Positions 1-63,436 of a stretch of 64,000 bases of DNA are shown here, piece after piece. Source of the DNA: Phycomyces blakesleeanus NRRL 1555(-) (lineage: Eukaryota; Mucoromycota; Mucoromycetes; Mucorales; Phycomycetaceae). The notes beneath the pieces are model-generated. The model was not told the origin of the DNA. It ran no database searches and was given only the letters and a program-made list of their open reading frames with translations. The stretch spans positions 1,288,715 through 1,352,714 of the forward strand of contig NW_017265145.1 in assembly GCF_001638985.1 (NCBI RefSeq). The letters run 5' to 3'. Position 1 is the first letter of the stretch. Every line of letters begins with the position of its first letter. The position numbers and the translations under genes are program-made.

Positions 1-343
1 TGGTCTTCCTTTTACTATAGCAAAGTCAAAAGGTCAAACCCACTGGGGATCGGAGAGTATATGTAAAATCGAAGAGAGGATAAAAGGTGCTTTTTATTGA
101 TAGAAATTGAATTGTCTTATATAGTTTCCTAAACTAATACTGCGCATTATCCGCAGTAAACTATTATACTCTATTTAATTACAAGAGAAGTCCTTTTACT
201 GTGGTTGATGCTCAGAAGATGTTACTGTGGTTAATCTTTACAAGACATTACTGCGGTTCGTTATCTATGAGGTATCTTTGACATACAGAACTGCTGTGGT
301 CAATTATCCCGATTTCTCGGATTCATCAAAATAATGTCCGACA
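1..343 (-). mobile_element. Solo LTR, tRNA-downstream family (TD), cut by window start
   Basis: Near-identical to the 362-bp copies at 6238-6599, 20938-21299 and 62919-63280. The window begins at base 20 of the repeat, so only the outermost 19 bp are missing. In its sense orientation (minus strand here) the LTR has TGTCGG/CGACA inverted ends, a TATATAAG box and an AATAAAA signal. No internal coding region of this family occurs in the window. Its U3 end faces the tRNA-Glu gene at 392-463. Confidence 0.9.
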
Positions 344-367
344 GATTCATCAAAATAATGTCTGACA
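344..367 (-). mobile_element. 24-bp terminal stub of a second TD LTR
   Basis: After the first LTR terminus (GTCCGACA, ending at 343) the last 24 bases of the LTR repeat again and end in GTCTGACA at 367. The simplest reading is that the LTR at 1-343 inserted close to the end of an older copy of the same family. The rest of the older copy would lie beyond the window. The stub ends 24 bp from the 3' end of tRNA-Glu. Confidence 0.7.
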
Positions 368-391
368 CAATAGAGTGTCATGTAAAAGAAA

Positions 392-463
392 TTCCCCAAC
401 GGGGAATTGAACCCCGGCCACGACGGTGAGAGCGTCGGATCCTAGCCACTAGACCATTGAGGA
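392..463 (-). tRNA. tRNA-Glu (CTC)
   Basis: A 72-nt cloverleaf on the minus strand. The acceptor stem TCCTCAA pairs with TTGGGGA (one T-G wobble). The anticodon loop CTCTCAC gives anticodon CTC, and the T-arm is CGGGG-TTCAATT-CCCCG. A-box and B-box sequences are in place. There is no intron and no encoded CCA. The 3' flank reads TTTCTTTTAC, a Pol III terminator. TD-family LTR sequence starts 24 bp further downstream. Confidence 0.95.
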
Positions 464-467
464 ATGC

Positions 468-863
468 ATGGTATTGACACGGTGCATTGTACTTTTTATC
501 AACCACAGTATTTTTCCCTTTTTCAGTCGATTTCAACCTTTTTAATTAGTCACAAGGTCTCAAACCCCCAATTATAATTTTATATTTTAATTTTAATTTT
601 ATTTATATTATTTTTATTTCTTATTCTAAAAATTTGACTTCTCGTCATTTTTATTTTTATTCTTCTCCAATTTTCTGAAGACAAATTTCCCTTCCCTTTA
701 TTCTTTTCTGAAATTAGTTTCTCTCTTTTTTATTTTTCTTACTTTTCTTAGGCACTAAATGTGACGTTTTCCTCTCAACACTACTTTACCAAAATTGTTA
801 ACTGTAGTTTTTCTTTTTTTTTATAACATACTCCCTCCCAATCTTTTCCATTTTCTGTAGTTA
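468..863. other. T-rich spacer without a recognisable gene
   Basis: Low-complexity, pyrimidine-rich sequence between tRNA-Glu and the Ty3-A LTR. I see no coding region, no tRNA and no copy of the tRNA-upstream LTR found at the other three tRNA loci. Confidence 0.6.
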
Positions 864-1256
864 TGTATTGTATTCAATATAATTGTAGATTCAAATAGAG
901 TGCACAGACTAAGACAAAGACATATTGAATAAGCAACCAGTATCAATTATACATTATTTCTCACACTATCATTAAATAAAAAATATACCAATAACAAGAT
1001 CACACACCTTAGTCAATATCACTAATCACTCAAACAAGAGCGTGGGTAATAACTTAACAATATATTATCTATGATATGAGAAAATAGACATCACATGATA
1101 TACTCATATCATTATCTTAAATACACATGCAATGTCTATATAAACTCACATAGCAAATAGCAATAGAAGGGGATCTCTTTTTTTCATTAATAAACAAAGT
1201 CTCACTGTACTTCTCGTCTACACTTTGTTTTTCTTTCTTTTTCTAAAAATATAACA
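864..1256 (+). mobile_element. 5' LTR of decayed Ty3-A element
   Basis: About 393 bp, starting TGTATTGTATTC and ending ATAACA. It aligns along its length with the 403-bp LTR of intact Ty3-C (46147-46549), sharing the CATGATAT region, the TCTATATAAAC TATA box and the CAAAGTCTCAC segment. Many substitutions show it is much older than the Ty3-C LTRs. The matching 3' LTR is absent because the element is truncated at 3494. Confidence 0.88.
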
Positions 1257-5643: not shown

Positions 5644-6070
5644 AAAATAGAAGTAAAGTAATAATATAATAATAATGTAGTAAAGTAAAGTAAAAAATAT
5701 AATAATAGTATAATAATAAAGTCTAATAAAAATGTAATAAAAAGTATTGTAAATAAATATCAGCAATAAAGAAGTGTATAAAATTAGGGAAAAGAAGTAT
5801 AATATTTAGTGGGTGACAGGTGTTTCTGAGGTGACAATATAGATGTATATTTTAATTATTTAAGAAACGGAATGAAATTGGGGGTTTGGGTATAAGGGGT
5901 ATTGGGAACAAGGTTTCCCAAGAAACCTGGGGAGACCACTCCTGTCCCTCAAGACACGTCACTTGGTCGACTCACCATTGACGTCAACGTCCACAAGTCT
6001 GGTACCATCTGTTATGGCTCACTGCCAGGCCAAACTGCTGAAGGAACACATCGTCCAGTGTCTATCACCA
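5644..6070 (-). mobile_element. Truncated LTR, tRNA-upstream family (TU)
   Basis: Matches the U3 half of the LTR at 21464-22068 (opposite orientation) and 60907-61365. Shared blocks include GGGTTTGGGTATAAGGGG and CTTGTCCCTCAAG-like sequence. The outer end (CACCA at 6070, i.e. TGGTG on the minus strand) is 50 bp upstream of tRNA-Arg. The U5 half was replaced by the P0 terminus. An open frame of about 110 codons across this region and the tRNA is fortuitous. Confidence 0.8.
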
Positions 6071-6120
6071 GAAATGGTTTAACAGTGACATTGTCTACAA
6101 CACACGTGCTACCGTTATAT

Positions 6121-6194
6121 GGCTCTGTAGCGAAATGGATTATCGCGTTAGACTTCGAATCTAAAGGTTGTGGGTTCGAGTCCCATCAGAGTCG
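6121..6194 (+). tRNA. tRNA-Arg (TCG)
   Basis: A 74-nt cloverleaf. Acceptor GGCTCTG pairs with CAGAGTC, with discriminator G. The anticodon stem-loop TTAGA-CTTCGAA-TCTAA gives anticodon TCG. The T-arm GTGGG-TTCGAGT-CCCAT contains a consensus B box. A T5 run 3' of the gene is the Pol III terminator. A TU-family LTR ends 50 bp upstream, and a TD-family LTR begins 43 bp downstream. Confidence 0.96.
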
Positions 6195-6237
6195 AGCACA
6201 TTTTTATTGTTGTCAAATTAAATTCGTGTGACAATTG

Positions 6238-6599
6238 TGTCGTTCCTGATCTGGGATGGTCTTCCTTTTACTATAGCGAAGTCAAAAGGTCAAACCCACT
6301 GGGGATCGGAGAGTATATGTAAAATCGAAGAGAGGATAAAAGGTACTTTTTATTGATAGGAATTGAATTGTCTTATATAGTTTTCTAAACTAATACTGCA
6401 CATTATCCGCAGTAAACTACTATACTCTATTTAATTACAAGAGAAGTCCTTTTACTGCGGTTGATGCTCAGAAGATGTTACTGTAGTTAATCTTTACAAA
6501 ATATTACTGCGGTTCGTTATCTATGAGGTATCTTTGACACACAGAACTGCTGCAGTCAATTATCCCGATTTCTCGGATTCATCAAAATAATGTCCGACA
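6238..6599 (-). mobile_element. Solo LTR, tRNA-downstream family (TD)
   Basis: Full-length 362 bp with TGTCG/CGACA ends, near-identical to 20938-21299. It starts 43 bp beyond the 3' end of tRNA-Arg. Unlike the copies at the other three tRNA genes, its U5 end faces the tRNA. No target duplication is evident (flanks ATTG and GGGA), so it may have exchanged flanks by recombination. Confidence 0.92.
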
Positions 6600-8629: not shown

Positions 8630-8993
8630 TGTCAGAGTTGACATCGGTGTCCAAAATTGGGAATTGCAACCAACTAGTAATAGTTGACTTTTTAGGATAA
8701 AAGATCTTGACTTTGCCGATTGGTCTCTTGTATATGTTTTAGATGTTTAAGATGGTGAATATACTTGTAGAAGATATTACTGGACAACAAGCATCTAAGA
8801 CATATTATTGTAGCTATTCTTTTAGCCAGAAATCAAACATCATTTTGTATAAATAGTCAAGAAATATAATTTATAAAAAGCATCTTTATTCTTATCAAAA
8901 AAACTATTCTTAAAACTTGACAATCCCCAGTGGTATTGATTCTGCAACTTAGTAACAAGTGCCAGAAAAGAAATATCAGATCGAGACTTGACA
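8630..8993 (+). mobile_element. Solo LTR of Ty3-F family
   Basis: 364 bp from TGTCAGAG to CTTGACA, highly similar to the 362-bp LTRs of Ty3-F (15378-15739, 20565-20926). It sits against the TD2 remnant that begins at 8994. The flanks (CAGT and TCAA) do not match, so the left side was probably rearranged after insertion. Confidence 0.88.
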
Positions 8994-15377: not shown

Positions 15378-15739
15378 TGTCAGAGTTGACATCGGTGAAT
15401 AAAATCGGTAGTTCTAAGCAACCAGTAAGAGTTGACTTTTTAGGATAAAAGATCTTGACTTTGTCGATTGGTCTTTCATATATGTTTTAGATGTTTAAGA
15501 TAGTGAATATACTTATAGAAGATATTACTGGACAACAGGCATCTAAGACATATTATCGTAGCTATTCTTTTAGCCAAAAATCAATTATCATTTTGTATAA
15601 ATAGTCAAGAAATATATTTAATAAAAAGCATCTTTATTCTAATCTAAAAACTATTTATAAACTTGACGATTCCCAGTGATATTGATTCTGCAACTTAGTT
15701 ACAAGTGCCAGAAAAGAAATACTAGATCGAGACTTGACA
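15378..15739 (+). repeat. 5' LTR of Ty3-F
   Basis: 362 bp from TGTCAGAG to CTTGACA. It contains TGTATAAATAGTC as a TATA region and AATAAAAAGC. It matches the 3' LTR at 20565-20926 and the solo copy at 8630-8993. Confidence 0.93.
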
Positions 15740-15741
15740 AT

Positions 15742-15753
15742 TGGTAGCTGAAT
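15742..15753 (+). promoter_or_regulatory. Primer-binding site of Ty3-F
   Basis: TGGTAGC begins 2 bp after the LTR end. This is the expected start of a site complementary to a tRNA 3' end (GCTACCA). It contrasts with Ty3-A, B and C, which lack a TGG at the LTR edge. The specific tRNA is not identified. Confidence 0.6.
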
Positions 15754-16987
15754 GACCGTTTCTTCTGACCCATCCAAGATCAGCACCCAGTTTTCCGTTG
15801 CTGATAGAAAAAAGTATGAGATTGAAGAAAGAGTTCAGGCCTTGCTTCCTGCCAATCTACAGACTACTTTTGCTGCCTCTCGTACTGTTCTGTTTCTTCC
15901 TGTTGAAGAACGCATCTGTTCCACCCCCGCAAGAGAAGATTTTTGGGATAATCAAGCCCGCCAAATCGTTGCCAAGCTTTTGGGTGTCCCTGTACCTACA
16001 CCCCCTGTCACAGATCCCACTATCCACGTACCTGTCTCCAGTTCTTTACCTGCTCCCACTATGAGTAACCAACCCATCTCTGCTGCTCCTACTGTTCCTG
16101 TTGCTGCTGCCTCTGCCACAACCGCTCCTGTGGCTGTGTCCATGCCCAATTTGATTGCGGCATTCACTGCGGCACTCCATAACACCCAGACTCCAGCCCC
16201 ATCCACCCCAGCCCCGGCCCCTGCCCATGTGTTGTTACCCTCTTCCGTCTGGATAGAACGTCCTGAGTTCTATTGTGGTGATCGTTCTGCCAATGCTATT
16301 GACAGCTGGGTTCGTTCTGTGGAACGTTGTGCCGACCTCTACCACATGGACTACAGTAGTTGGACTTCGTATGCCATCACCCTTCTACGTGATCGTGCTG
16401 ACGTTTGGTGGTGTTGTTTGGAAGATACTGGCTCTACTACCTCGGACTGGCATTCATTTACTTGGTTGCTCGATGATAACTTCCGCCCCGTCCATTCTAC
16501 ACAAAATGCCCATGATCGCATTCGTTCCTTACGCCAGACTGGCTCTATTGAAACATATATTGATACATTCCAGAATCTCCGCATGGATATTCCATCCATG
16601 ACAGAAGATAAAGCTCTTGACCGATTCACCAATGGCCTGTGCCCCAAAACTCGCAGTCAAGTCCATTTCCGGGAACCTCTGGATGTTGCTGATGCTGCTC
16701 GCACTGCCCTGGCATTTGAGAATGGCCACCATCCTATCCCTGCTCCTCGCCCTGAACTGGTCCCACAGTATGCTCGCAATGACAGTCCCACGCCCATGGA
16801 CCTTGATGCTATGGAGGGGAGGGGGTCCATGCAGACCAATTACCGAGGATGCTCAGGACAATGTAGTGGCCGATTCTCCGCTCCATGCTCTGATATGCAA
16901 CCAAACTAATAAGGAAGCCGAGATAGCCATGAGTGTTTCTGGTGTGGCCAGGTGAGCCATCTCAAACGTTTCTGTCTGGACCATATT
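15752..16987 (+). pseudogene. Gag of Ty3-F (capsid intact, frame break before the zinc knuckle)
   Basis: An open frame of 385 codons (15752-16909) starts MTVSSDPSKI. After a Pro/Ala-rich stretch (residues about 90-165) comes a retrotransposon Gag domain: RPEFYCGDRSANAIDSWV, DRADVWW, DWHSFTWLLDDNFRP, SIETYIDTFQNLRMDIPS. The CCHC zinc knuckle CFWCGQVSHLKRFC (about 16934-16975) lies in another frame just downstream, so a frameshift or nonsense change separates capsid from nucleocapsid. Gag normally forms the virus-like particle in the cytoplasm. Confidence 0.85.
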
Positions 16988-17157
16988 GCCGCAATCTGCC
17001 AACTGGATGAAGGACATGCCAAAGCACAAGGCCGCAATAATGTGTCATTCCATATAACTGAGCTAAGAGGGGACCAGTTGCGTGAGGCTCAAGACCCTCA
17101 GACCAGGGATGTAAAGATTATAATAGTGTTAGCTATGAAGAATTTGATAATAAAACT

Positions 17158-20100
17158 TTGTCTTACCAGTATTTTGATGTCCCAACTACTGTCAATGAAG
17201 ATCTGATGCATCTAGAACAACTCAACTCAACAATCAACACAGACCTACCACTCTATGAAGCTACATATAAGGGGAAGTGCATATCAGTATTAATTGACAG
17301 TGGCGCAAGCGCAAACTATGTGACACCAGAAATAGCAAGACTTACCAGTATTGTGGAAAAGGTGGAAGATTGACAAGTTAAGACAGCTGGTGGCCACCAG
17401 ATTCCAATCACTCAGAAGGTCAACATGCCGATATCCCTTAATGGTTACACTAATGTGATCAAAGCGTACATATTTCCAATGAAGTTCGACTTAATCTTGG
17501 AAAGAATCTGGTTACAGAAAGCTCAGCCGATTCCCAACTGGTTTAATGACAGCTGGAAACTTTACAAAGATAACAAAGAATACACTATACAGCCACACAA
17601 TGCACAGACCACCACAAACCATTTGAACTACATCGTGTCACACAAGCAAGCAAGGAAACTGATAAAGAAACAACAAGCTGAGAGTTTCTTACTGTTTATC
17701 AAAGAAGACAAAATAGAACACACAACCGACAAACCAGAATGGAATAACCTAGCAAAGGAATTTCCAGATGTATTCAAGGATGAGCTTCCTGGAGTACTGC
17801 CAGACTGTGATGTACAGCATGTAATTAACATCGAAGATGCAAGACCAATTAGCCAACCGCCATTCAAGATGAGCCCCTTGGAGTTGAATGAGCTCAAGCA
17901 GCAACTCAAAGAACTTCTTGATCTCGGTTTAATCTGCCCAAGTGCATCACCATGGGGTGCCCCAGTACTGTTCGTAAAGAAAAAAGATGGTGCCATGTAA
18001 ATGTGTATTGATTACCATGCCCTTAACAAAGTAACTGTTTGCAACAATTACCCATTACCACGAATCGATGAATGCTTGGAAAGACTCCATGGATCCGCCC
18101 ATTTCACCAGCCTTGACCTTAAAAGTGGCTATCATCAAGTGAAAATCTACCCCAGTGATGTCCCAAAGTCTGCATTTAACACTCGTTATGGCCAATACGA
18201 ATTCCTTGTTCTCCCTTTTGAATTGACCAATGCACCCCCGACTTTCCAAAGCTTGATGAACCGAGTATTGGGTGACTGCCTTGATAAGTTTGCATTGGTG
18301 TACCTCAACGACATCCTCATATTTAGTAAGACTGAAGAAGATCATTAACGTTATGTATGCCATGTCCTACAAAGGTTGCAAGAGGAGAAGCTTGTGGCCA
18401 ATTTGAAGAAGTGCGAGTTCAACAAGAAAGAACTCATTTTTGTTGGATTCCAAATCACAGCACAAGGTATTCTACCTGCACCTGGAAAAGTGAAGGCTGT
18501 TAAAGATTGGCCGGTTCCCACAAACATACAGGAGGTACACCAGTTCTGTGGTCTTGCACAACATTACAGACGATTTATCCCAGGATATGCAAGCATGGCC
18601 TTGCCATTAATGGATCTGACCAAGGGTACTGGCGCCAAGCAACAACCTATTGTATGGACAAAAGACTGCCAGGAGAGTTTTGAACTCATCAAGAAACGGC
18701 TTACTGCTCCCCCAGTATTGCAAGCTCCAGATGTGCTCAGACCATACCAGATAGAAACCGATGCCTTGGACTTCAGTGTAGGCGCAGTATTACTACAAGA
18801 AGGCGAAGATGGGCTGTGGCACCCTCTAGCATACGAGTCAAAGAAGTTTTCCTCGGCAGAAAGATCATACCCAGTACAGGAATGAGAGCTACTTGGAATA
18901 GTACATGCACTCCGAACCTGATGTTGCTTAATTGATGGCAGACCCTACACTGTGTTCTCCGACCACCTGCCATTGAAGTATTTCCGTTCACAGGTGACCT
19001 CCACACCCCGCCTTATCTGTTGGATTGCAGAATTAAAGCTATATGTGCCAGATATTCAGTACAAGCCAGGCAAGGAGAATGATGTACCTGATGCCTTATC
19101 CCACATGGGAGGTCCAGACAGTCAAAGTTTTACAGAATCTATCAAGCCAGATTACCTGTACGCCACGTTACTGACACATCCCACAGATTGGCCAAACTAC
19201 TACACTTTCCAGCCAGACCAAGTCCCAATTGATGCCCAGGCTATTGTAGAGAAAAATAGATATCATTTTGTGGTGAAGAACCAACAAGTATTCCGCAAAG
19301 TAATGATAGGCAATGGAGACGTTTGCAAAGTACCATTCCTCCCATTTGCACAATGAGCAGACAAGGTCCAAACGTATCACCAAGGATTCGGACGCTCAGG
19401 GTTTACTACTATGGTTGATTTGCTAAAGTCCCACCACTGGTGGCCCACCCTCTGCAATGATATCAAAGAATGGCTAAGCGCATGCCCAGAATGCCTATTA
19501 AATACAAGAAAAGATGGTCAGCACCACGACGAGATGCACCCACTGAAAATACCCACAGCTTTCCAAAGATGGCACTTGGACTTCATTGGTAGACTACCCA
19601 TGACCCTGAAAGGAAACCAATGGATCCTTGTGACCGTTGACTACACCACTAATTGGCCCATTGCCCGTGCTGTCCCCGTTGCATCTGCCAAAATGGTTGC
19701 TGATTTCATTTATGAAGAAATTGTTATGCATTTAGGTTGCCCAGCAGAGATCCTCACTGACCGTAGTAAAAATTTCACTAGCAAGCTTGTGTCAGCTTAT
19801 CTCAGCCATATTCAGTCAAACCACCACCTCACCTCTGCATTCCATCCAAGAACGAATGGCAAGTGCAAGCGTCTCAATGGAACTCTTAAGCAAATGCTAC
19901 GCAAGTACACAAATGGTGCTTTACATTGCTGGGATAACTTCTTATCTGCTGCACTTTGGGCCTGTTGCATCCGCACTCATGCCACCACCAGATACAGTCC
20001 ATTTTTTCTCACATATGGCCGCCATCCCATTCTACCTGGTGACCCTCAACAGTCGTATATCAATAAAAACGTCTCTGAGGACCCTCGTGCTGTTGCTGAC

Positions 20101-20598
20101 AAAACCACTGATCAACTGGAGAACGTCGGTAGGGCCCGTGAAGCTGCTGAACTATGTATGACTGTTATGAGCAATAAAGACAAAGAAAAATGTGATGCCA
20201 TCATCAAGAAAGTGTTGTTCAAGATTGGTGACCATGTCAAACTCATGCACAAAGGATGTTTTGGTCTGGAACTGCGATTCAAGGGTCCATTTGTAGTCAT
20301 GAACAAGAACGAGGCTTATGGTACTTATCAATTGAAAACTATGGAAGGTAAACCTCTCACATCCTGGGTTCATATTGACCATTTGTACAAGACACATGGT
20401 GATGCCCCTCAAGACACATGGTATAACCCAAATGCCTCTTGCTCTGCCTGGCGCACTGCTATGCGACTCTTGGACTTGGAGATTCCGAATGACACGGTCG
20501 ATCCTGTGGCTTCACCAGATGATGTTGGTGCTTGTGGACGATCACAAAGCCAGGAGGGGGGTAATGTCAGAGTTGATATCAGTGAACAAAATCAGTAG
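17158..20598 (+). pseudogene. Pol of Ty3-F with six stops and mutated active sites
   Basis: In order: protease LIDSGASANYV (about 17290), reverse transcriptase (17900-18350), RNase H (QIETDALDFSVGAVLL, about 18750), integrase zinc domain (HHWW...CPECL, 19430-19500) and integrase core (WHLDFIGRLP, LTDRSKNF, NGKCKRLNG). In-frame stops are at 17371, 17998, 18346, 18883, 18919 and 19354. The RT active site reads YLNDIL where YLDDIL is expected, and the integrase core has K where the catalytic E should be (NGKCKR); both fit G-to-A changes. Non-functional even apart from the stops. Confidence 0.9.
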
Positions 20599-20926
20599 TT
20601 ATAAGCAACTAGTAAGAGTTGACTTTTTAGGATAAAAGATCTTGACTTTGCCAATTGGTCTTTCATATATGTTTTAGATGTTTAAGATGGTGAATATACT
20701 TGTAGAAGATATTACTAGACAACAGGCATCTAAGACATATTATCATAGCTATTCTTTTAGCCAGAAATCAATTATCATTTTGTATAAATAGTCAAGAAAT
20801 ATATTTAATAAAAAGCATTTTTATTCTTATCTAAAAACTATTCATAAACTTGATGATCCCCAGTGGTATTGATTCTGCGACTTAGTTACAAGTGCCAGAA
20901 AAGAAATACCAGATCGAGACTTGACA
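20565..20926 (+). repeat. 3' LTR of Ty3-F
   Basis: 362 bp, preceded by the polypurine tract and followed by the CATG target duplication. It differs from the 5' LTR at several positions. Confidence 0.93.
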
Positions 20927-20937: not shown

Positions 20938-21299
20938 TGTCGTTCCTGATCTGGGATGGTCTTCCTTTTACTATAGCAAAGTCAAAAGGTCAAACCCACT
21001 GGGGATCGGAGAGTATATGTAAAATCGAAGAGAGGATAAAAGGTCCTTTTTATTGATAGGAATTGAATTGTCTTATATAGTTTTCTAAACTAATACTGCG
21101 CATTATCCGCAGTAAACTATTATACTCTATTTAATTACAAGAGAAGTCCTTTTACTGCGGTTGATGCTCAGAAGATGTTACTGTGGTTAATCTTTACAAG
21201 ACATTACTGCGGTTCGTTATCTATGAGGTATCTTTGACATACAGAACTGCTGCAGTCAATTATCCCGATTTCTCGGATTCATCAAAATAATGTCCGACA
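20938..21299 (-). mobile_element. Solo LTR, tRNA-downstream family (TD), with target duplication
   Basis: Full-length 362 bp flanked by CGAT (20934-20937 and 21300-21303); the repeat could also be read as 5-bp ACGAT. Its U3 end is 42 bp from the 3' end of tRNA-Gly. It inserted directly beside the older TD2 LTR that ends at 20933. Confidence 0.94.
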
Positions 21300-21341: not shown

Positions 21342-21412
21342 TGCGCGGACCGGGAATCGAACCCGGGCCCTTCGCGTGGCAGGCGAAGATTATACCACTT
21401 AACCATCCGCGC
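21342..21412 (-). tRNA. tRNA-Gly (GCC)
   Basis: A 71-nt cloverleaf on the minus strand. Acceptor GCGCGGA pairs with TCCGCGC, with discriminator A. The anticodon stem-loop TTCGC-CTGCCAC-GCGAA gives anticodon GCC. The T-arm GGTTCGATTCC is the B box. A T6 run follows the 3' end. A TD LTR lies 42 bp downstream and a TU LTR starts 51 bp upstream. Confidence 0.97.
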
Positions 21413-22068
21413 TTTATGATTTTATCATAAATGTTGTAGCCAAGTGTGGCTGTGGTTAGTCTCTGGTGCGGGATACCGGACGGTGGATTCCTTTGGTGGT
21501 TTGGTCCGGCGGTGAGCTGTGACGGGTGGTACCGGACTCGTGGACGTTGACGTCGACCGAGTGACGTGTCTCGAGGGACAAGAGTGGTCCCCCAGGTGTC
21601 TTGGGAAATCTTGCTCCCGATGCCCCTATACCCAAACCCCCTAATATAATCCCGTTCCTTAAAATTAAAATACCCATCTACATTGTCACCTCAGAAATAT
21701 CTGTCACCCACTAAAAACATTATACCTCTTTCCCCTAATTTTATACACTTCTTTATCACTGACATTTATTTCACACTATTTTTTATTATATTTTATTAGA
21801 TTCTATTATTATATTATTACTTTACTTCTATTCTACCTCACTATATTTTTACTTTATCTTTATTCAATTATTATATTTTTACTATATTTTTATTTTACTC
21901 TCTCTATAATTTTCTATTCTACTTCTACTATCAACACCAGTTATATATAGTAAAAATTTTCACTTGACTTCCTTTTCTTTTCCTCAAAAATTATTTTAAT
22001 CAAACATTTTTGTTTATAAAAAGAACAATCTTTTCAATTAATAAAATTATCATTCTATTCTTGATCTT

Positions 22069-22600
22069 TGTTGTAAATGAGTATTGACTACTGCTGTAAT
22101 TGAGAATAAGTCTGAAGGAAATAATATAAGGCCTCAGCTATTCCAATCAAAGGTGTCTACCGATTACTTTATTATTTAACACACAGGTTTAGCATGCATG
22201 ATAGTGATTATATTTCATATGATGATATCACCATAATATGGGATACATCAGTGAATTATTATAAGCATAATTATAACTCATAAACACATTTACTTTCGAT
22301 GTTAATACTTCATTGGGACTACACACATTTATATAATTAATCATACATTAATTATCCCAAGATCACGTTGCTCTGATTAAGGCTCAGATAGGATCGATTA
22401 CCTGACCCCAGTCATATAATTTTCCCAATCCAAAACAATATAAATAGCAGTAGTAGTTCAGTGTAGGAACCTGGTCAAACTTTGATACAAAATCTTTCTC
22501 AATAAACAAAACCTACACAAGTTCTCACGAATCTTCGTTCCTAATTTCAAATCTTGAATTCTTCCTCTTAAAAACTTCTTCAACTTCAACCACCACAACA
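22069..22600 (+). repeat. 5' LTR of Ty3-B
   Basis: 532 bp, TGTTG...CAACA. TATA region AATATAAATAGC near 22437. It contains TCACGAA (22525-22531), complementary to the sequence just after the LTR. Confidence 0.95.
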
Positions 22601-22606
22601 TTTTTT

Positions 22607-22613
22607 TTCGTGA
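22607..22613 (+). promoter_or_regulatory. Putative self-priming primer-binding site of Ty3-B
   Basis: TTCGTGA, 6 nt after the LTR, is complementary to TCACGAA at 22525-22531 in the LTR. There is no TGG-led tRNA match. Tf1/sushi-type chromoviruses are known to prime from their own mRNA, and this element has a chromodomain. Confidence 0.5.
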
Positions 22614-22619
22614 ACTACT

Positions 22620-45290: not shown

Positions 45291-46146
45291 TAGAAGATCT
45301 TATTAACAAGTAAGGTACTTATAAAGTCATTTATATGTTTAATCACAACTAATAAAAATCAACTGTTTTGTTTTGTTTTGTTTATTAGAGTAGGTAATAC
45401 TAACTTTTATATTTTTAATCTATAGAAACCTAATAAAAATATCATTTTAAAAAATAACTTTATGAAATACAATATAATTTGTTTATTGCCCTGTATACTT
45501 CTTCTATTATTTTGTAAGTTTTTTTTGTGGTTGTTTTTTGTAGTTTTTTTTAAAAAAAAATATTTCAGAGATCAAAAATAAAAAATAAAAATAAAAACAA
45601 ATTCGCCCATGACGTATTACATATTTTTGACCAATGAGTGAATAGATAAATTTACTCAAACAAGGTCTAGTTCATCTTAATACATGTATTTTACTGGCTG
45701 GAGAGAGTTGTACAACACTAAATAAAGTTCAAAGTCCTGGTATTCCACGGATCCGATTTGCTAAGAGATGTAGCACCAACAGAGTTATGCTTGATTTTTA
45801 TTGGTTCATTGAGAATGTGCAGTTTTGCACATAATAGCTCGAAATGTGCACTACAGAATTACAAATTGTGCCATTTCCTACAGTGTTGCCTTTGAAGCTC
45901 GCGTAATGCTTGCTTGATTTCAGCAAGATCAACCTCAATCTTTTGAATTGAGTTGAGGAGAGTTGTGTTAATATTGGACATGTTTAAGTTTTTTTTAGCT
46001 ATAAGCAGTGAGTTGAAAAGAAAAGATGATAGTTTAGATAAGTAGAATAAGAGCTATTTGAGTTTGAGAAAGGCAATGATTTATTATAAGCAATTGATAG
46101 CTATTTATATGAAAAAGATACAGACAGACGTACAAACAAAACATAT
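45290..46146. other. P4 interior left of Ty3-C
   Basis: Mostly AT-rich and non-coding. A short minus-strand frame (about 45980-45860) starts MSNINTTLLNSIQKIEVDLA with heptad spacing, possibly the first exon of a coiled-coil protein cut off by the Ty3-C insertion upstream. The target duplication CATAT of Ty3-C is at 46142-46146. Confidence 0.4.
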
Positions 46147-46549
46147 TGTTGTATCCAACATAATCGTAGATTTAAATTAAAAGTACAGACACTCAATAAA
46201 TACGTACATTGAGTTACCGACAACTAGTAACGATACTAAAAGATATACCTTCCCTTATACAAGGAAATTACGTAAAGAACATACTAAGACAAATACTAAG
46301 ACTCTAGTCAATAACACTAAAAACATAAGAACTAAATCATAGAAGATAATGGTAGAGAAACAGACATTACATGATATCATCATATCACCACCAAGCTAAA
46401 TACAATGTCTATATAAACGCACAATACTAATAGCAATAGAACAGCATCTCTTTTCTGATTCTTGCACTTCTTCTAATAAAACAAAGTCTCACCGTACTCT
46501 CGTCTGCACTCGTTTTATTTTATATCTTATTTTTACCTCATACATAACA
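46147..46549 (+). repeat. 5' LTR of Ty3-C
   Basis: 403 bp, TGTTGTATCC...CATAACA. TATA region TCTATATAAACG at about 46409. It includes TCACCGTA (46489-46496), complementary to the presumed primer-binding site. Confidence 0.96.
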
Positions 46550-46554
46550 TTTTT

Positions 46555-46562
46555 TACGGTGA
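46555..46562 (+). promoter_or_regulatory. Putative self-priming primer-binding site of Ty3-C
   Basis: TACGGTGA, 5 nt after the LTR, is the exact complement of TCACCGTA at 46489-46496 in the LTR. The LTR edge is followed by a T run rather than TGG. The primed strand would be the element's own RNA, as established for Tf1 of fission yeast. Confidence 0.55.
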
Positions 46563-46599
46563 ACTCTTTTTTTTCATTGAAAAACAACCTCTACCAAAC

Positions 46600-49500
46600 A
46601 TGTCCTCTGAACAAACAACAAGTAACTCTCCGGTCCTGACTGCCCAGAGCGATCTGAGCATGATGGAAGCCCCTGTCAACAACCAAGTCATCAACCATGC
46701 GGACCGCACCCTGCAAGCAATAGACCGCCTCAGGGAAATGCTGGCCACTTGTTCCTCGGCACTGGCAGATGCAATCGAACATAATATGCCTGAGGAGAAC
46801 AAGAACTCCATTCGCCAAACCATTGCAGCGACAGAAGGCGACCTGGTCATGCTGATCTCGGCCCATGGTCATCTAGTGCGCTCAAGTCCGGTTCAAGCTG
46901 AGCAAACCGCTCCTCAGTCTCGTCTGGTACCCCGCGAGCTTCCAGTATTTCAGTGGCAAGGCAACGAGTGGGACCACACACAAAAGGTCTATGCATCTAT
47001 CGAAGAATGCCTGGACAAGTTTGAGGATGTGCTGCACTCGTACAGCATGGACCTCAACGTCGACTGGCACCGCCTCCTCCCAATTGTATTGTCACGCGAG
47101 CAAAGATCCTGGTTTGACAACTACTTGCGCAGTTCCCCAGAACTCCCCTGGTCCTTTGCTCGGGATGCCTTCATCAAGGCATATGGAATCAATGACCTTG
47201 AGAGACGCGTTCAGCTCACACATGAGCTGATGCTCATGCGTATGCGAACCACAGAGTCCGTCAGCAACTATACGGACAGATATCAGAGGGTACGCCGCGA
47301 AGCTGATGTAGCCGATAATATGCAGGCTGCCATTGCCTACACTTCCACGCTGCTACCAGAGCTTGCACGCCAGGTCTCTCTCCTTCAGGTCAACATGCCC
47401 AGAGAAAAGCGTGACACAATTGACAAAGCTGCGTCTCTGGCCAGGTCTATTTACAGCACAGTATTCCTAACCGCCCGTAGCAATGAGCCCGTGGCCAGGG
47501 CACACACCTTGGGTTCTGAGCAGGTGTCCCGCACATCTTCTTCGTCTTCTGCTGGGCGCTCATCTGGTTCATCAAGGGAGAACGCTCAAAGCCGTGAGCG
47601 TTCAACTCACAAGAGATGCTCCCTACATGGTAAAGGTAACCATGACACTGAGGATTGTCGCATCCTCAAGAATGCACTTGCCACCAAGGGCGGCAATCGG
47701 GTGGAGAAGGCACCCCACGCCAACAAGTACGTTGGTTCGGCTCCCTGTCGTTGGTGCGGCGAAGTTTGGTCTCACAAACACCGCTGTTCTTCGGTCTCTG
47801 GTTCCTCCAGCTCTTCTGGTTCTGCGTCTGGCTCTCCCCGGGGTTCTGCTCCCCACTTCGCCGTCCGCTCCATCCACACTGTCACCAACGACAGTACTCC
47901 CTCAGATGCCAGCTCATCTGAGGACGACCAGTCCATGGTCATGGACTTTGAACAGTGCTCCACATGTAAGTATACAAGCACTCACACAGATCACAATAAA
48001 CGATCTACTCACTCCTATCTTGTTCCTATCTCTTTAGAGGAGGAGAAACTGTGGGCATTGGTGGACACAGGGGCTACTATCAGTTCCGTCAGCACCAAGA
48101 TCTGTAGCAAGTTGGGCTGGCCCACAATTCCGCGCAACGGAAAAATTGTGTTGGCCACTAACAACGCTATAGCTCATAGACTAGGAGTAACAAAACCAAT
48201 AAAAGTTTTTTATAACAACAAGCATATTATACATTCATTTGAAGTTTTGGATCTTGCTGAGAACATAGATGTTAGCATTGGTACAGATTTAATGCCAAGT
48301 CTAGGTATTCATTTACTTGGACTAGCAGAGAGTTGGTACGGTTCTAATACACCTCAGACTCCAACACCCATAGCAGAAATAGAAAAACCCAATAATGCAC
48401 CAGCTGGCACACCCACTGAACACTCTCAATTCATGAAGGCTCTACTACCCTTTATTAAAGCAAATGAAGCCATACCCATCACTTCATTTTGTACAGTTAA
48501 GGAATCTATTGTACGACTACCAACACCTCCAGGCCAAGTAGTCTATAGACGACAGTATCCTATAGCTTTACAACTTGTTCCACTGATGGCCAAACATATA
48601 AACCAATGGCTTACTGATGGCACCATACAAAGGGCACCCGTCAATACTAAGTGGAACAGCCCACTTACATTCGCTCCTAAAAAAGATGAGTTTGGTAATC
48701 CCACAGGCAAGCGTCCTTGCTTAGATCCCAGAGCCATCAACACTCTGCTACCTGACGACAGATTCCCTCTGCCACTCATCTCTGAACTCTTTCACAGGCT
48801 ACGAGGTGCAACAATCTTCACTACGCTAGACCTCAAGAGTGCCTTTCATCGATTCAAAATTTATGAAGACGATAGACACAAGACTACATTCACGTTTGAA
48901 GGCAATCAGTATATGTTTCGAGGATGTCCCTTTGGTCTCAAGCCATTGTCGTCCAAGTTTCAGCGAGTAGTCAATTTGATTTATCACGATACTCCATACG
49001 TCACTGCATTTGTCGACGACATCGTAGTTTTTTCCACTAACATGTCTGACCATGTTAAACACGTCCAAACGGCTATTCAAAAGCTCACGGATGTCAATCT
49101 CATTCTCAATCCGCAGAAATGTCACTTTGCACAAACTTCTGTATCGTTACTGGGTTTTACTGTAAGCACTAGAGGTATTGATCTTGATGCTCGCAAGGTT
49201 CACAATGCTACCATGTGGCCACAACCCAAGTCTGGCAAAGACATTCAACGCTTCATGGGTCTCGTCAACTATTTTCGTGAGCACATTCCCAACTTGTCGC
49301 AACTGTCTTCTCCTCTGGACAAACTACGCAATGCTGACTCACTACACGGGTTATGGACAGAAGAACAAACGCAAGCTTTTTCCAAGCTCAAAATTGCACT
49401 TACACACGCACCAGTACTAAGCCACCCTGACACAACCCAACCATTTCTGGTTGCCACAGACGCCTCCAACACAGGTATAGGCGCCGTGCTCTATCAGATT

Positions 49501-51258
49501 ATAGACAACCAATATCGCTACATTGGTTTTATGGCACGGTCACTTTCCAAATCTGAACGCAACTATCCTGTCACCAAACGCGAACTTTTGGGCATCGTTT
49601 ATGCTTTGGCTAAATTCCATAAGTTCTTGTGGGGTAACAAGTTCACGTTGTACACGGATCACAAGGCTCTCACGTACCTTCACACGCAAGAAATTGCCAA
49701 CCCTATGATGATAAACTGGCTTGATGTACTCTGCGACTATACTTATGACATAGTCCACCGCCCTGGCATTGACAATGTATTGCCGGATGTTTTATCGCGC
49801 CTTTTCACCTCGGAAAAACCGCTGGGGGAGGGTAAAACCGTAGAAATCTCTACGAAACATCCAACAAAGGACAGAAAACACAAAACACATGCCATTCAAC
49901 GCATGCATAGCACAAGTGACATGATAACACCACCGGTCAAAGACAGACAGAATCTGCTCGACCAAGCACATCTACTTGGCCACTTTGGCACAGATGCCAT
50001 AGTAAATGCTATACACAGTGACGGACTACACTGGACTAATCTCAAGCAAGAGGCAACAGAAACAGTAAAGCGCTGCTTGAATTGCCAACGGTTCAATGTC
50101 TCAAAACACGGCTATCATCCGCTGAAGCCTATTACAGCCAGTCAACCAGGTGAACACTGGGCCATAGACTTAGCTGGCCCATACACCACCTCGCACAATG
50201 GCAATCATTACATGCTAGTAATGGTTGACATCTTTTCCCGATTCTGCATACTCCGCGCAATTCCAGATAAGACATCTTTAACAATTGCAAAACAACTCAT
50301 TCAAATCTTTTGCGACTTCGGCCTACCCAAGGTTTTACAGTCAGATAATGGTACCGAGTTTGTCAACGAACTCGTCAAGACTTTCACAAATACAGCAGGA
50401 ATTGATCATCGGCTTGTAACACCCTATCATCCGCGAGCAAATGGAGTTGCTGAAAAATGGGTACACACAGCCAAGGAAGTCATCAACAAGAGAACACAGG
50501 GAGCAAAGCGAGACTGGGACATATACATCCCAAGCACACAGCTAGCCATAAATAGCAAACATGCTAAGCTACATGGCACACGCCCATTCACTCTAATGTT
50601 TGCAAGACAACCAAACGATTTTGCTGATTACAGAAAAACAGAGAGCACGCACAACGCTCCTAACAGTCTACCAGATATGAAAAAAAGAATTGAACAAATG
50701 GAGACTGTCGTATTCCCAGCAATCTGCGAACGCATCAAAGCTACACAAGCTGCTGATAAAGGAAAACACGACAAAGACCATAAAATAATAATGGAGTTCC
50801 CGAACGACAGCAACGTGATGATAAAGAACATATTAAGAAAGTCTAAGATGGACCCAAGATATGAAGGACCATTCACAGTCAAGGGCAGAACAAAGGGAGG
50901 CAGCTACATTTTGCAAGACGAAACGGGAGCACTTCTATCACGAAACATCCCACCTTCGCAGATAAAGCTGATCTCACAAGATACTGTTATATCTCCAGAT
51001 AGCTTTTACGAGATACAGGCTATCATTGATCATCGTCAAGAAAAAGGCGACTACCTTTACAGAGTGCGCTGGAAAAACTATGCACCAGATCAAGACACTT
51101 GGGAGCCCACAAGCAATTTCAACGATCTGAGCATAATTGACAAATATTGGCAAAGACGAGGTCCAGAGAAACCCACCAATAAATCTACAATTATACATAA
51201 CAAGCGTACACATCCAATACAAGAGCCTACACGCTTTAGCAAACGTACACGCAAATAA
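46600..51258 (+). CDS. Ty3-C Gag-Pol polyprotein with chromodomain, intact
   Basis: 1552 residues in one frame. Gag is about 1-400 with two Cys/His clusters (CSLHGKGNHDTEDC about 340, CRWCGEVWSHKHRC about 383). Aspartic protease ALVDTGATIS is at about 486. RT shows TTLDLKSAFHRFKI (about 741) and FVDDIVVF (about 804). RNase H ATDASNTGIGAVL is at about 952. The integrase zinc domain is about 1124-1167 (HLLGHFG...CLNCQ). The integrase core has D in AIDLAGPY (about 1190), D in SDNGTEF (about 1249) and E in NGVAEKW (about 1284). A chromodomain (YEIQAIIDHRQ...YRVRWKNY..DTWEP) is at about 1469-1520. All catalytic residues are present. Gag and Pol share one frame with no shift. The first ATG is 46600, 51 bp after the LTR. 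The chromodomain probably guides integration to heterochromatin. Confidence 0.97.
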   Translation: MSSEQTTSNSPVLTAQSDLSMMEAPVNNQVINHADRTLQAIDRLREMLATCSSALADAIEHNMPEENKNSIRQTIAATEGDLVMLISAHGHLVRSSPVQAEQTAPQSRLVPRELPVFQWQGNEWDHTQKVYASIEECLDKFEDVLHSYSMDLNVDWHRLLPIVLSREQRSWFDNYLRSSPELPWSFARDAFIKAYGINDLERRVQLTHELMLMRMRTTESVSNYTDRYQRVRREADVADNMQAAIAYTSTLLPELARQVSLLQVNMPREKRDTIDKAASLARSIYSTVFLTARSNEPVARAHTLGSEQVSRTSSSSSAGRSSGSSRENAQSRERSTHKRCSLHGKGNHDTEDCRILKNALATKGGNRVEKAPHANKYVGSAPCRWCGEVWSHKHRCSSVSGSSSSSGSASGSPRGSAPHFAVRSIHTVTNDSTPSDASSSEDDQSMVMDFEQCSTCKYTSTHTDHNKRSTHSYLVPISLEEEKLWALVDTGATISSVSTKICSKLGWPTIPRNGKIVLATNNAIAHRLGVTKPIKVFYNNKHIIHSFEVLDLAENIDVSIGTDLMPSLGIHLLGLAESWYGSNTPQTPTPIAEIEKPNNAPAGTPTEHSQFMKALLPFIKANEAIPITSFCTVKESIVRLPTPPGQVVYRRQYPIALQLVPLMAKHINQWLTDGTIQRAPVNTKWNSPLTFAPKKDEFGNPTGKRPCLDPRAINTLLPDDRFPLPLISELFHRLRGATIFTTLDLKSAFHRFKIYEDDRHKTTFTFEGNQYMFRGCPFGLKPLSSKFQRVVNLIYHDTPYVTAFVDDIVVFSTNMSDHVKHVQTAIQKLTDVNLILNPQKCHFAQTSVSLLGFTVSTRGIDLDARKVHNATMWPQPKSGKDIQRFMGLVNYFREHIPNLSQLSSPLDKLRNADSLHGLWTEEQTQAFSKLKIALTHAPVLSHPDTTQPFLVATDASNTGIGAVLYQIIDNQYRYIGFMARSLSKSERNYPVTKRELLGIVYALAKFHKFLWGNKFTLYTDHKALTYLHTQEIANPMMINWLDVLCDYTYDIVHRPGIDNVLPDVLSRLFTSEKPLGEGKTVEISTKHPTKDRKHKTHAIQRMHSTSDMITPPVKDRQNLLDQAHLLGHFGTDAIVNAIHSDGLHWTNLKQEATETVKRCLNCQRFNVSKHGYHPLKPITASQPGEHWAIDLAGPYTTSHNGNHYMLVMVDIFSRFCILRAIPDKTSLTIAKQLIQIFCDFGLPKVLQSDNGTEFVNELVKTFTNTAGIDHRLVTPYHPRANGVAEKWVHTAKEVINKRTQGAKRDWDIYIPSTQLAINSKHAKLHGTRPFTLMFARQPNDFADYRKTESTHNAPNSLPDMKKRIEQMETVVFPAICERIKATQAADKGKHDKDHKIIMEFPNDSNVMIKNILRKSKMDPRYEGPFTVKGRTKGGSYILQDETGALLSRNIPPSQIKLISQDTVISPDSFYEIQAIIDHRQEKGDYLYRVRWKNYAPDQDTWEPTSNFNDLSIIDKYWQRRGPEKPTNKSTIIHNKRTHPIQEPTRFSKRTRK

Positions 51259-51331
51259 ACAACAGCAACATTGCAGACACATATACCTCCGCATGCAATT
51301 CAAACGGTTGTACCAACCTGGAGGGGGGTAA

Positions 51332-51734
51332 TGTTGTATCCAACATAATCGTAGATTTAAATTAAAAGTACAGACACTCAATAAATACGTACATTGAGTT
51401 ACCGACAACTAGTAACGATACTAAAAGATATACCTTCCCTTATACAAGGAAATTACGTAAAGAACATACTAAGACAAATACTAAGACTCTAGTCAATAAC
51501 ACTAAAAACATAAGAACTAAATCATAGAAGATAATGATAGAGAAACAGACATTACATGATATCATCATATCACCACCAAGCTAAATACAATGTCTATATA
51601 AACGCACAATACTAATAGCAATAGAACAGCATCTCTTTTCTGATTCTTGCACTTCTTCTAATAAAACAAAGTCTCACCGTACTCTCGTCTGCACTCGTTT
51701 TATTTTATATCTTATTTTTACCTCATACATAACA
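51332..51734 (+). repeat. 3' LTR of Ty3-C
   Basis: 403 bp, one difference from the 5' LTR. Followed by target duplication CATAT at 51735-51739. Confidence 0.96.
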
Positions 51735-59856: not shown

Positions 59857-59951
59857 TTCATAAAATGTTAATTTAAAAGAAAAAGAGAGACTATTACATT
59901 TGCTGTTTTCGGCATTTTAAAAAAAGACAATTCTTTTTATCCCTCACTGTA

Positions 59952-60903: not shown

Positions 60904-61365
60904 TAAAAATATAGTAATTGAATAAAGATAAAATAAAAATATAGTGGGGTAGAATAGAGATAAAATAATAATATAATAATGATATAGTGAAGTAAAGTAA
61001 AAAATATAATAATAGTATAATAATGAAATCTAATGAAAATATAATAAAAAATATTGTAAATAAATATTGACAATAAAGAAGTGTATAAAATTAGGGGAAA
61101 GAAATATAACTTTTAGTGGATAACAGACATTTCTGAAGTGACAATATAGATGGGTATTTTAATTATTTAAGGGATGGAATAAAATTAGAGGTTTGAGTAT
61201 AAGGGGTATCAGAAACAAGATTTCCCAAGAAATCTGAGGGACCACTCTTGTCCCTCAAGGCACGTCACTTGGTTGACTCACTATCAACATTAACACCCAC
61301 AAGTCCGGTACCACCCGTCATGGCTCACCATCAGATCAAATCACCAAAGGAACCCACCATCCAGT

Positions 61366-62624
61366 CACTATAAGAAAAAAATTGCTAGATTTTCTTAAAA
61401 AACCTGGCAAACCTGGCAACTTTTTTAATCTCCTATAGGTTTTACCATGTTTAGGTTGTTTGCAGCTTAATTAGGCATATAAATACTGATATTGAAATAA
61501 AAGTTTATTACAGAAGACTCTTAAAGCTATATTAAAAGTTAAGAACTCATAATTCTTATTATTGGTCTGGTGAAACCATTGATAATTGAATATTATGCTG
61601 CCCTTTTTTAAGAAAATAAAACACTTTTATAAGGCATGCTGTGACGTATAAACATTTATAAATGGAATCAATGCAATCAATGCAATCAATGCAATCCAAG
61701 TAGTAAAAAACGACTTTGCAGAATTTATTATGTTTTTATACTGATATTCAGTTATTGTACTAAGGCTTAGATTTTTCTCTTTTCAAAAGTAAACAACAAG
61801 TGCTTTTTAACTACACTAACATTTTTTCTTTTTCTTTAATCAAGAGCATAAAATCAATGGTACATTTAGTAATTCTTATACTAAATAATATTGTTATAGA
61901 ATAATGCTGCTATGTATATATGAATATTGAGGTAAATATATCAATGTTAATAGATTTTAATGGTAAATTACTAATCAAACTTCATTTTGATAATAATTAG
62001 GCTTGAATCTTCTAAGCTATTAAAGGTATAAATGCCCAAAATGAAAGTATGAGTAAAGTGTAGAAATCATTAAATATAAAGATTTGTATTATTTTATACT
62101 CATTTAATACCAATTGTATTCTATTCAAAATAAATTCTTTCAGAATGCAAATACTAATTTTTTTCTTTCTTTCTTCTTTTTATTTATGTATAGATTAAAC
62201 GTCTTTCAGTTACTGTTATAGTTTTTTGGCTTACTTTATATAAAGTATCTTTCAATTAGTTAGAAATATTGCTACAACTTCTACAACTTGTATGCATATT
62301 GTACTTTGTTAACCCCAATATTTTCAATGTGAAAATAAATGAAAATGAATTTTTTTTAATAAATTTGAGTGTTTGTAACCCTCTAATAAGAATACTGATC
62401 CCTAGATATACATTAAAATCATTATAATAATAAAAAGCTATCTGCAAATGTTATTGGTTAAAATAAGACCTGAACCTCATTATTCAACATATCTGATTTT
62501 CTTAAATAGGTGAAACTGATTGCTATATACTGAAACTCTATTGGCTCAGAAGAATGTTGCCAGGTGGCACTTTTTAACGATTTTTGCCAGGTCAGTAGTT
62601 TAATACCTGCCATTTCTTATAGCG
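61366..62624. mobile_element. 1.26-kb non-autonomous CACTA element
   Basis: Ends CACTATAAGAAA (left) and CGCTATAAGAAA (right, minus strand), with AGT/GGT as an imperfect 3-bp target duplication (or exact GT). Each end has two copies of ACCTGGCAA-type subterminal repeats in inverted arrangement (61400-61420; about 62555 and 62585). There is no coding sequence. The related TU LTR at 5644-6070 is uninterrupted (GTCCAGTGTCTATC) and confirms the insertion point. Confidence 0.82.
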
Positions 62625-62689
62625 GGTGTCTATCACCAGAAACTAACCAACGGCAAATTACTTTGCATTAGTTTTGATAGTATAGCCGT

Positions 62690-62762
62690 GCTTCCTTAGC
62701 GCAGTTGGCAGCGCGTTAGTCTCATAATCTGAAGGTCGCCAGTTCGATCCTGGCAGGGAGCA
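62690..62762 (+). tRNA. tRNA-Met (CAT), elongator type
   Basis: A 73-nt cloverleaf. Acceptor GCTTCCT pairs with AGGGAGC, with discriminator A. The anticodon loop is CTCATAA, and the T-arm GCCAG-TTCGATC-CTGGC has the elongator TTCG rather than the initiator form. A T4 run lies just 3'. A TU LTR ends 51 bp upstream and a TD LTR begins 40 bp downstream. Confidence 0.96.
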
Positions 62763-62802
62763 TGCTTTTGCTTGTAGCGTTTTGTGTATGTATTCATCAG
62801 AT

Positions 62803-63436
62803 TGTCTGACATTATTTTGATGAATCCGTAAATTCTGAAGATGGTTAACTGCAGTATAATGACTCTTCTTTTATTTAAATATAATATAATAGCTACTGCG
62901 GATAATGTGCAGTATTAGTGTCGGACATTATTTTGATGAATCCGAGAAATCGGGATAATTGACCGCAGCAGTTCTGTATGTCAAAGATACCTCATAGATA
63001 ACGAACCTCAGTAATGTCTTGTAAAGATTAACCACAGTAACATCTTCTGAGCATCAACCGCAGTAAAAGGACTTCTCTTGTAATTAAATAGAGTATAATA
63101 GTTTACTGCGGATAATGCGCAGTATTAGTTTAGAAAACTATATAAGACAATTCAATTCCTATCAATAAAAAGGACCTTTGATCCTCTCTTCGATTTTACA
63201 TATACTCTCCGATCCCCAGTGGGTTTGACCTTTTGACTTTGCTATAGTAAAAGGAAGACCATCCCAGATCAGGAACGACATTAGTTTAGAAAACTATATA
63301 AGACAATTCAATTCCTATCAATAAAAAATATCTTTTATCCTCTCTTTGATTTTATATATACTTCTTGATCCCCAGTGAGTTTGACCTTTTGACTTTGTTA
63401 TAGTAAAAGAAAGACAAACCCAGATCGGGAACAACA
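62803..63436 (+). mobile_element. TD-family LTR (outer copy), split by a younger TD LTR
   Basis: 62803-62918 and 63285-63436 join into one diverged TD LTR (TGTCTGACATT...GAACAACA). It starts 40 bp after tRNA-Met. It is interrupted by the full-length copy at 62919-63280. Confidence 0.88.
62919..63280 (+). mobile_element. TD-family LTR (inner copy) nested in the outer copy
   Basis: 362 bp, TGTCGGACA to GAACGACA, with TTAG on both sides (62915-62918, 63281-63284; also readable as 5-bp ATTAG). The outer copy provides the empty site. TATATAAG and AATAAAAAG confirm the orientation. Confidence 0.94.

Follow-up and report, generated by a model that had tools for sequence, protein, structure and literature searches.

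A Ty3/gypsy LTR family found downstream of tRNA genes in the Mucorales fungus Phycomyces blakesleeanus

Several retrotransposons are described beside transfer RNA (tRNA) genes, on one side or the other. In several dictyostelid species Skipper-2, a Ty3/gypsy element with long terminal repeats (LTRs), lies on the downstream side of tRNA genes at a distance of 7-136 bp, and its sister Skipper-1 is not at tRNA genes, according to the available text of two reports (PMC5006619, PMC5911963). The available part of the second, a 2018 review, places TRE3 of Dictyostelium 40-150 bp downstream of tRNA genes and TRE5 44-54 bp upstream in opposite orientation, and gives downstream insertion only for social amoebae (PMC5911963). 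Ty3 uses TFIIIB with help from TFIIIC, and Ty1 uses RNA polymerase III (Pol III), as stated in the accessible portions of PMC5911963 and PMC7175516. In Rhizopus oryzae 99-880, Ty3 elements were described in 2009 as 'often co-localizing with tRNA genes' in the accessible portion of that paper (PMC2699053), so a tRNA association in Mucorales is in itself not new. Here we describe TD, an LTR family of Phycomyces blakesleeanus NRRL 1555(-), starting from a stretch of 64,000 nucleotides (the window, C12:1288715-1352714) of a 53.5-Mb assembly of 60 contigs, labelled C1 onward, which was searched as a whole.

The window contains four tRNA genes, for Glu, Arg, Gly and Met (Table 1), and each has a TD LTR on its 3' side after a gap of 23, 42, 42 and 39 bp, respectively. 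The initial annotation had given this near-fixed spacing as 24, 43, 42 and 40 bp, at most one base off, and its statement that every close TD copy in the window adjoins a tRNA gene agrees with our repeat search of the window. At Glu and at Met two LTRs are present, a young one nested inside an older related one. A target duplication was looked for at the Arg copy and none was found.

The same arrangement recurs across the genome. The pattern of the TD U3 end (U3 and U5 being the two ends of the LTR), with up to two mismatches, has 269 matches (127 forward, 142 reverse), and a reversed control pattern has none. Flanks were read for the first 53 of 100 listed exact U3 ends, taken in contig order and so blind to tRNA genes. 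A tRNA gene was present in the fetched stretch at 48 of these, and in every case the LTR is 3' of that gene (46 placed by script; L032 and L062, scored as overlapping with no U5 end found, placed by BLAST), and none of the 53 examined ends was on the 5' side. The distance was 200 bp or less for 37 of the 53, for which the chance probability is about 5e-63 even when all 2452 loose tRNA candidates are counted as real. The other script-placed ends lie at 309-794 bp (eight) and at 5047 bp (one). The last is the middle LTR of a tandem element, and at L042, L059 and L075 another LTR sits nearer, between the tRNA gene and the scored LTR. Among the five copies with no tRNA gene, L051 is an inner LTR; the second LTR of its element, L052, lies 32 bp from a tRNA-Trp gene. 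The initial annotation had named a majority of TD copies far from tRNA genes as the outcome that would overturn its proposal; in the 53 of 269 ends tested, 48 are tRNA-linked.

Two further samples point the same way. Of 279 candidates in a search with TD DNA, the best 40 were scored and 30 cut out; a tRNA gene lies within 1.5 kb of 24 of these 30, the LTR again always on the 3' side, and the other six include inner LTRs of full-length elements. When we began instead from the tRNA genes, 63 of the 2452 candidates were scored, picked by tRNA score alone and regardless of TD, and at least 17 of them have a neighbour among the 133 listed exact U3 ends at 700 bp or less, in each of the 17 on the 3' side; this number is a lower bound because inexact U3 ends are absent from the list. 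Altogether, 20 kinds of tRNA are found beside TD.

Geometry was measured on the 63 distinct tRNA genes of the TD loci and the window, a set picked by TD whose occupancy is therefore uninformative and whose geometry is usable. No TD match was found within 700 bp upstream of any of these 63 genes. The nearest LTR edge, found at 62 of them, lies 11-108 bp past the tRNA at 59, and the median of all 62 is 39 bp. In 62 of 62 cases a run of four or more T, starting at median position 5, comes before the LTR, as in the placement just past the Pol III terminator that the initial annotation gave for the window. The preference for U3 ends facing the tRNA (three of four in the window) does not hold up: over the 62 genes, U3 faces the tRNA 27 times and U5 35 times (binomial p 0.37), and with orientation unbiased the window's three of four is chance.

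These copies are not one insertion multiplied. Perfect 4-bp direct duplications, and none of 5 bp, flank 29 of the 60 LTRs with both ends found, and since their sequences differ from site to site they mark separate insertions. Of the other 31, 17 abut ATTGGTAG or GGGGGTGA, which is what LTRs within full-length elements should do; the remaining 14, including the Arg copy of the window, have neither a duplication nor such a junction. Substitutions between the paired LTRs of full-length or tandem elements number 0 on C9, 0 between the outer LTRs on C5, 0 between neighbouring LTRs on C36, 1 on C2 and 3 on C22, and the middle LTR on C5 has two differences from each outer one. Identical pairs indicate that some TD copies are recent; the copies examined also include solo LTRs and nested ones, inserted anew at loci already occupied. 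Insertion in these copies is thus one-sided, short-range, sequence-independent, repeated, partly recent and present at many tRNA kinds, and the initial proposal of an LTR family using a downstream Pol III window stands, with mostly 11-108 bp spacing and independent insertions in genome-wide samples.

TD is the 362-bp LTR of a Ty3/gypsy element of about 5.4 kb, with related forms of 311 and 267 bp. Its termini are TGTCGG..CGACA, with ATTGGTAG, the primer-site sequence, after one LTR and GGGGGTGA, a polypurine sequence, before the other; two TG..CA LTRs, these two sequences and the 4-bp duplications agree with Ty3/gypsy (Metaviridae) elements. In L072 (2473-5055, minus strand) a frame of 860 residues encodes reverse transcriptase, RNase H and the zinc-binding and core domains of integrase, and its Pfam matches follow the Ty3/gypsy order RVT_1, RT_RNaseH, H2C2, rve. 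A chromodomain (PF00385) was not matched in this frame at E 0.001, and its last 191 residues gave no match to one at E up to 10. Residues 330-860 have 169 relatives, 120 of them listed, and the named ones among the matches listed are Mucorales: Mucor saturninus (80% identity), Lichtheimia, Circinella, Rhizopus, Absidia, Parasitella and Choanephora, with a Rhizopus delemar RA 99-880 protein (P0042) at 56%. A single entry from a Leuconostoc metagenome-assembled genome was taken for contamination, and a search of viral contigs found no relative. By sequence, the best solved match is 7q5b (E 8e-92), the intasome of Ty3 on a TFIIIB-bound tRNA gene; the integrase of Ty3 targets Pol III genes. An AlphaFold model of the TD integrase from 25 sequences (mean predicted local distance difference test score, pLDDT, 73.5; predicted template-modelling score, pTM, 0.41) terminates in a strand-rich region, which we take to be the GPY/F region, followed by a low-confidence tail. 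The GPY/F label is also in use in the available text of PMC5006619. A fold search with this model returned foamy-virus intasomes first, with 7q5b at rank 9; TM-scores were near 0.3 throughout. As a separate observation, TD-type U3 ends at C6:1435, C8:1631 and C14:1680 (flank read at C6) are at near-equal distance from three contig starts, pointing to a common subtelomeric unit.

Three other LTR families of the window, D2, D3 and D4, served for comparison, each represented by its best-scored 40 candidates (of 216, 523 and 180, respectively) and set, like the 40 TD candidates, against the 63 genes picked by tRNA score. Within 200 bp of these genes are 9 of 40 TD and 7 of 40 D2 LTRs and none of the 40 D3 or 40 D4 LTRs (Fisher against D3 and D4 together, 2.6e-5 for TD and 3.1e-4 for D2); for D3 and D4 the count remains 0 of 80 within 500 bp. 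D2 has nine places within 1.5 kb of a scored tRNA gene, all on the 3' side, and its integrase is 51% identical to that of TD over 406 aligned positions, with no Pfam match to a chromodomain in the integrase frame. D3 and D4 carry the chromodomain PF00385. Subtraction of the TD LTR and its 4-bp duplication places the D2 element of the window about 49 bp 3' of tRNA-Gly, where it had inserted before TD landed between them. It is likely that D2, as a related lineage with no detected chromodomain, uses the same route as TD. The best 40 LTRs of D3 and of D4 are 97-100% identical to the query; within D3 the 40 scored genome LTRs are 99-100% identical, a recent expansion, and its pol is split over two overlapping frames within the integrase.

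We consider it very probable that TD is a Ty3/gypsy LTR element that inserts repeatedly on the downstream side of tRNA genes, in most cases 11-108 bp beyond the gene end, and that Pol III machinery bound to the gene likely tethers its integrase. The most probable anchor would be either TFIIIC at the B box or the polymerase as it terminates. The integrase itself would make the guiding contact, with a Pol III factor as the presumed partner, and the short tail behind the GPY/F region, in place of a chromodomain, may be the contacting part. On a tRNA gene the upstream side is occupied by TFIIIB and the downstream side by TFIIIC at the B box and by the polymerase at termination, so that downstream-only insertion makes TFIIIC or Pol III the simplest partner. 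TFIIIC takes about half of our confidence, and the remainder is left to Pol III, TFIIIB at a distance or features of the DNA.

That remainder includes a contact with TFIIIB as in Ty3, the nearest solved relative, with the intasome reaching round to the 3' side; TFIIIB is, however, established to sit upstream, where no examined TD copy lies, and we regard this course as rather unlikely. The integrase could also be drawn to a physical feature such as nucleosome-free DNA, terminator DNA or an R-loop instead of a Pol III protein. The T-run before every one of the 62 LTR edges and duplications with no common sequence would suit such a feature, yet the 5' side, which Pol III factors are likewise established to keep open, holds no examined TD copy, and the available text of PMC5911963 describes use of, or contact with, Pol III proteins for Ty3, Ty1 and TRE5; this explanation seems unlikely to us. 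Alternatively, TD may insert anywhere and survive only beside tRNA genes as a low-harm haven. The flanks of tRNA genes are a known safe place for elements, as far as the accessible text of PMC5006619 goes, and other repeats too lie near the tRNA genes of the window. However, the D3 and D4 LTRs scored above, at 97-100% identity to the query, are absent within 500 bp of the scored tRNA genes, young TD elements with identical LTR pairs are already there, and survival does not account for the lack of TD LTRs on the 5' side, where other families are common. Such filtering as the whole explanation is quite improbable, and selection after insertion could still sharpen the pattern. Multiplication of a tRNA-LTR cassette has local precedents, in that L024 and L025 share the same tRNA-Lys and LTR flanks and L057 and L078 have both flanks in common, but 20 tRNA kinds, varied distances and target duplications that differ by site led us to reject it as extremely improbable.

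Several observations weigh against tethered downstream insertion or limit its reach. The 53 ends with flanks examined, out of 269, all come from contigs C1-C6, and for three tRNA genes the gap to the nearest LTR edge is 361-727 bp. D3 and D4 each have one place within 1-1.5 kb of a scored tRNA gene, and in the window a D3 LTR begins 0.66 kb upstream of tRNA-Gly and a D4-like LTR lies 0.89 kb past tRNA-Met. The correlation with the chromodomain consists of four points, one per LTR family, and the D2 frames are interrupted. The integrase model is middling (pTM 0.41), and the TM-scores of its fold matches are near 0.3. L045 and L064 have no tRNA gene nearby. At L057 and L078 a short stretch with a T-run and with motifs that by eye resemble an A box and a B box ends about 30 bp before the LTR (1045-1116 in L078, 1111-1182 in L057; one copy at a contig start); because they share both flanks, they represent one insertion, duplicated. 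Rfam called no tRNA in this stretch, ARAGORN at its default none, no clear cloverleaf was seen and a B-box scan allowing one mismatch missed it; at a 60% threshold ARAGORN calls it in L078 only, among 11 other calls. The idea that copies with no tRNA gene had targeted some other Pol III gene was dropped, Rfam finding none in 8 loci at E 0.1. A below-cut-off mir-1 match on both strands of L064 was taken for a palindrome.

The 5' side of the tRNA genes has its own occupants. A proximal segment is shared with another flank in 51 of the 63 tRNA 5' flanks, and the alignments between flanks are all in the same orientation (424, pairs counted both ways; 0 opposite). Eight family-end motifs, picked by eye so that their counts are descriptive, gave 53 matches in 52 of the 63 flanks, 51 of them 44-53 bp from the tRNA and one in opposite orientation. 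One such family, D7, lies 5' and on the same strand in 11 of the 11 places (of 40 scored) that have a gene of the tRNA-score set within 200 bp. Frames in the upstream elements at L069, L039, L020 and L003 read away from the tRNA; that at L069 matches an endonuclease domain typical of non-LTR elements (PF14529, apurinic/apyrimidinic endonuclease type, E 8.5e-14), that at L020 has no Pfam match of its own, and no such coding frame was seen in the D7 flanks.

The L020 frame, of the long interspersed nuclear element (LINE) type, was searched against the genome and gave 142 places, of which 90 with the first part covered and good scores were used and 52 partial or weak ones left out. Twelve of the 90 have a listed TD U3 end or a scored tRNA gene no more than 3.5 kb away, and this mark is 5' of the LINE frame in 12 of 12; the other 78 have no such mark in the lists, which are incomplete. 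Twelve pairs of LINE and D2 within 3.5 kb all have the same polarity. LINE starts of the second open reading frame (ORF2) also stand head to tail at 4.4-6.4 kb spacing (G000 C24:46132-65547, and C10, C44, C1, C17 and C22), some series ending at a D2 LTR, as would fit LINEs entering again and again at a single fixed position next to a tRNA gene. D7 was tried as the 5' end of the LINE: only two of 40 places have a LINE ORF2 start with matching polarity and order at about 2.1 kb, a third has one at 4.0 kb and four have one on the opposite side, so that D7 stays unclassified. An evenly balanced proposal, in our view, is that tRNA genes in this fungus are two-sided landing pads, with Ty3-type elements lacking a chromodomain entering just beyond the terminator, their integrase having switched partner from TFIIIB to TFIIIC or Pol III, and LINE-type elements entering at a fixed site about 47 bp upstream, so that the layout of TRE5, TRE3 and Skipper-2 in Dictyostelium would have been reinvented in a fungus.

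The features of the window are collected in Table 1. In addition, a frame at 1255-2004 resembles the start of the D4 polyprotein and thus marks a decayed D4-type element upstream of tRNA-Glu. Two transposase genes of the tnp2/DUF4218 type, apparently broken, lie at 12006-14348 and 32586-34929 (Transposase_21 match in the first), and fragments of Tc1/mariner-type transposases at 53835-54479 and 59425-59916 (DDE_3, HTH_Tnp_Tc3_2).

Table 1. tRNA genes, LTRs and other repeats of the window, in window positions
Feature	Position	Strand	Source	Remarks
Young TD LTR	1..343	-	repeat search, sequence	cut by window start; nested in older LTR; U3 end toward tRNA-Glu
Older related LTR, U3-terminal remnant	344..367	-	sequence, U3 pattern match	23 bp from tRNA-Glu 3' end
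tRNA-Glu(CTC)	391..464	-	ARAGORN, Rfam agrees	
5'-flank family common to L019 (Ser) and L067 (Cys)	505..903	.		ends ~41-50 bp upstream of tRNA-Glu; limits approximate
5'-flank family D7	5646..6074	+		proximal end 45 bp upstream of tRNA-Arg
tRNA-Arg(TCG)	6120..6195	+	ARAGORN, Rfam	
Solo TD LTR	6238..6599	-	repeat search, sequence	U5 end toward tRNA-Arg, 42 bp beyond tRNA 3' end
Solo D2 LTR	8630..8993	+	repeat search	
D2 Ty3/gypsy element	15378..20926	+		LTRs 15378-15739 and 20565-20926; duplication CATG; frames interrupted
Solo TD LTR	20938..21299	-	repeat search, sequence	42 bp beyond tRNA-Gly; duplication CGAT (ATCG on LTR strand)
tRNA-Gly(GCC)	21342..21412	-	ARAGORN, Rfam	
D7-type 5'-flank family	21459..22046	-		upstream of tRNA-Gly; limits approximate
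D3 element with chromodomain	22069..28094	+		control; outer end approximate
D4 element with chromodomain	46144..51734	+		control; outer end approximate
tRNA-Met(CAT)	62689..62763	+	ARAGORN, Rfam	
Older TD-related LTR, U3 part	62803..62918	+	repeat search, sequence, U3 pattern	39 bp beyond tRNA-Met
Young TD LTR	62919..63280	+	repeat search, sequence	inside older LTR; 4-bp duplication TTAG on both sides
Older TD-related LTR, U5 part	63280..63436	+	repeat search, sequence	continuation of 62803..62918
D4-like LTR (93%)	63652-64000	-		0.89 kb past tRNA-Met; cut by window end

No report of a fungal LTR family downstream of tRNA genes was found in a literature search of partial coverage, with subscription papers mostly outside it; what the present data add is the side, the distance, the missing chromodomain and the two-sided layout. 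The Rhizopus elements share a Mucorales host with TD, and the accessible part of that account gives no side, distance or family. The initial annotation had looked to TRE3 as the closest analogue. TRE3 and TRE5 are non-LTR elements with another integration chemistry, in contrast to the LTRs and integrase of TD, and by the available text of PMC5006619 Skipper-2 of dictyostelids, an LTR element, is closer. It is TRE5 that the upstream families recall: both lie about 44-54 bp upstream and, where LINE-type frames read, in opposite orientation, the LINE-type assignment being drawn from the first parts of the frames.

Like TD, Skipper-2 is a Ty3/gypsy LTR element downstream of tRNA genes, but its hosts are amoebae. 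According to the accessible descriptions, it keeps a diverged group II chromodomain, whereas TD has no chromodomain match, and many Skipper elements have a polypyrimidine tract in place of the primer site, whereas TD has ATTGGTAG after the LTR. Chromoviruses are likewise set apart by their chromodomain, present in D3 and D4 and absent as a match from the TD frame and the D2 integrase frame. With the same habit in a fungal LTR family that has no chromodomain match, downstream targeting is uncoupled from the diverged chromodomain to which suspicion had fallen in Skipper-2. Ty3 of Saccharomyces cerevisiae shares with TD both the Ty3/gypsy lineage and tRNA genes as target, but goes to the Pol III start site, upstream, whereas TD is on the 5' side in 0 of 53 and 0 of 17 cases. 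Start-site targeting, as in Ty3, and downstream targeting, as in TD and D2, can thus be compared inside one Ty3-type group, and with both sides represented there the contact between integrase and Pol III could be mapped by comparing the integrase tails.

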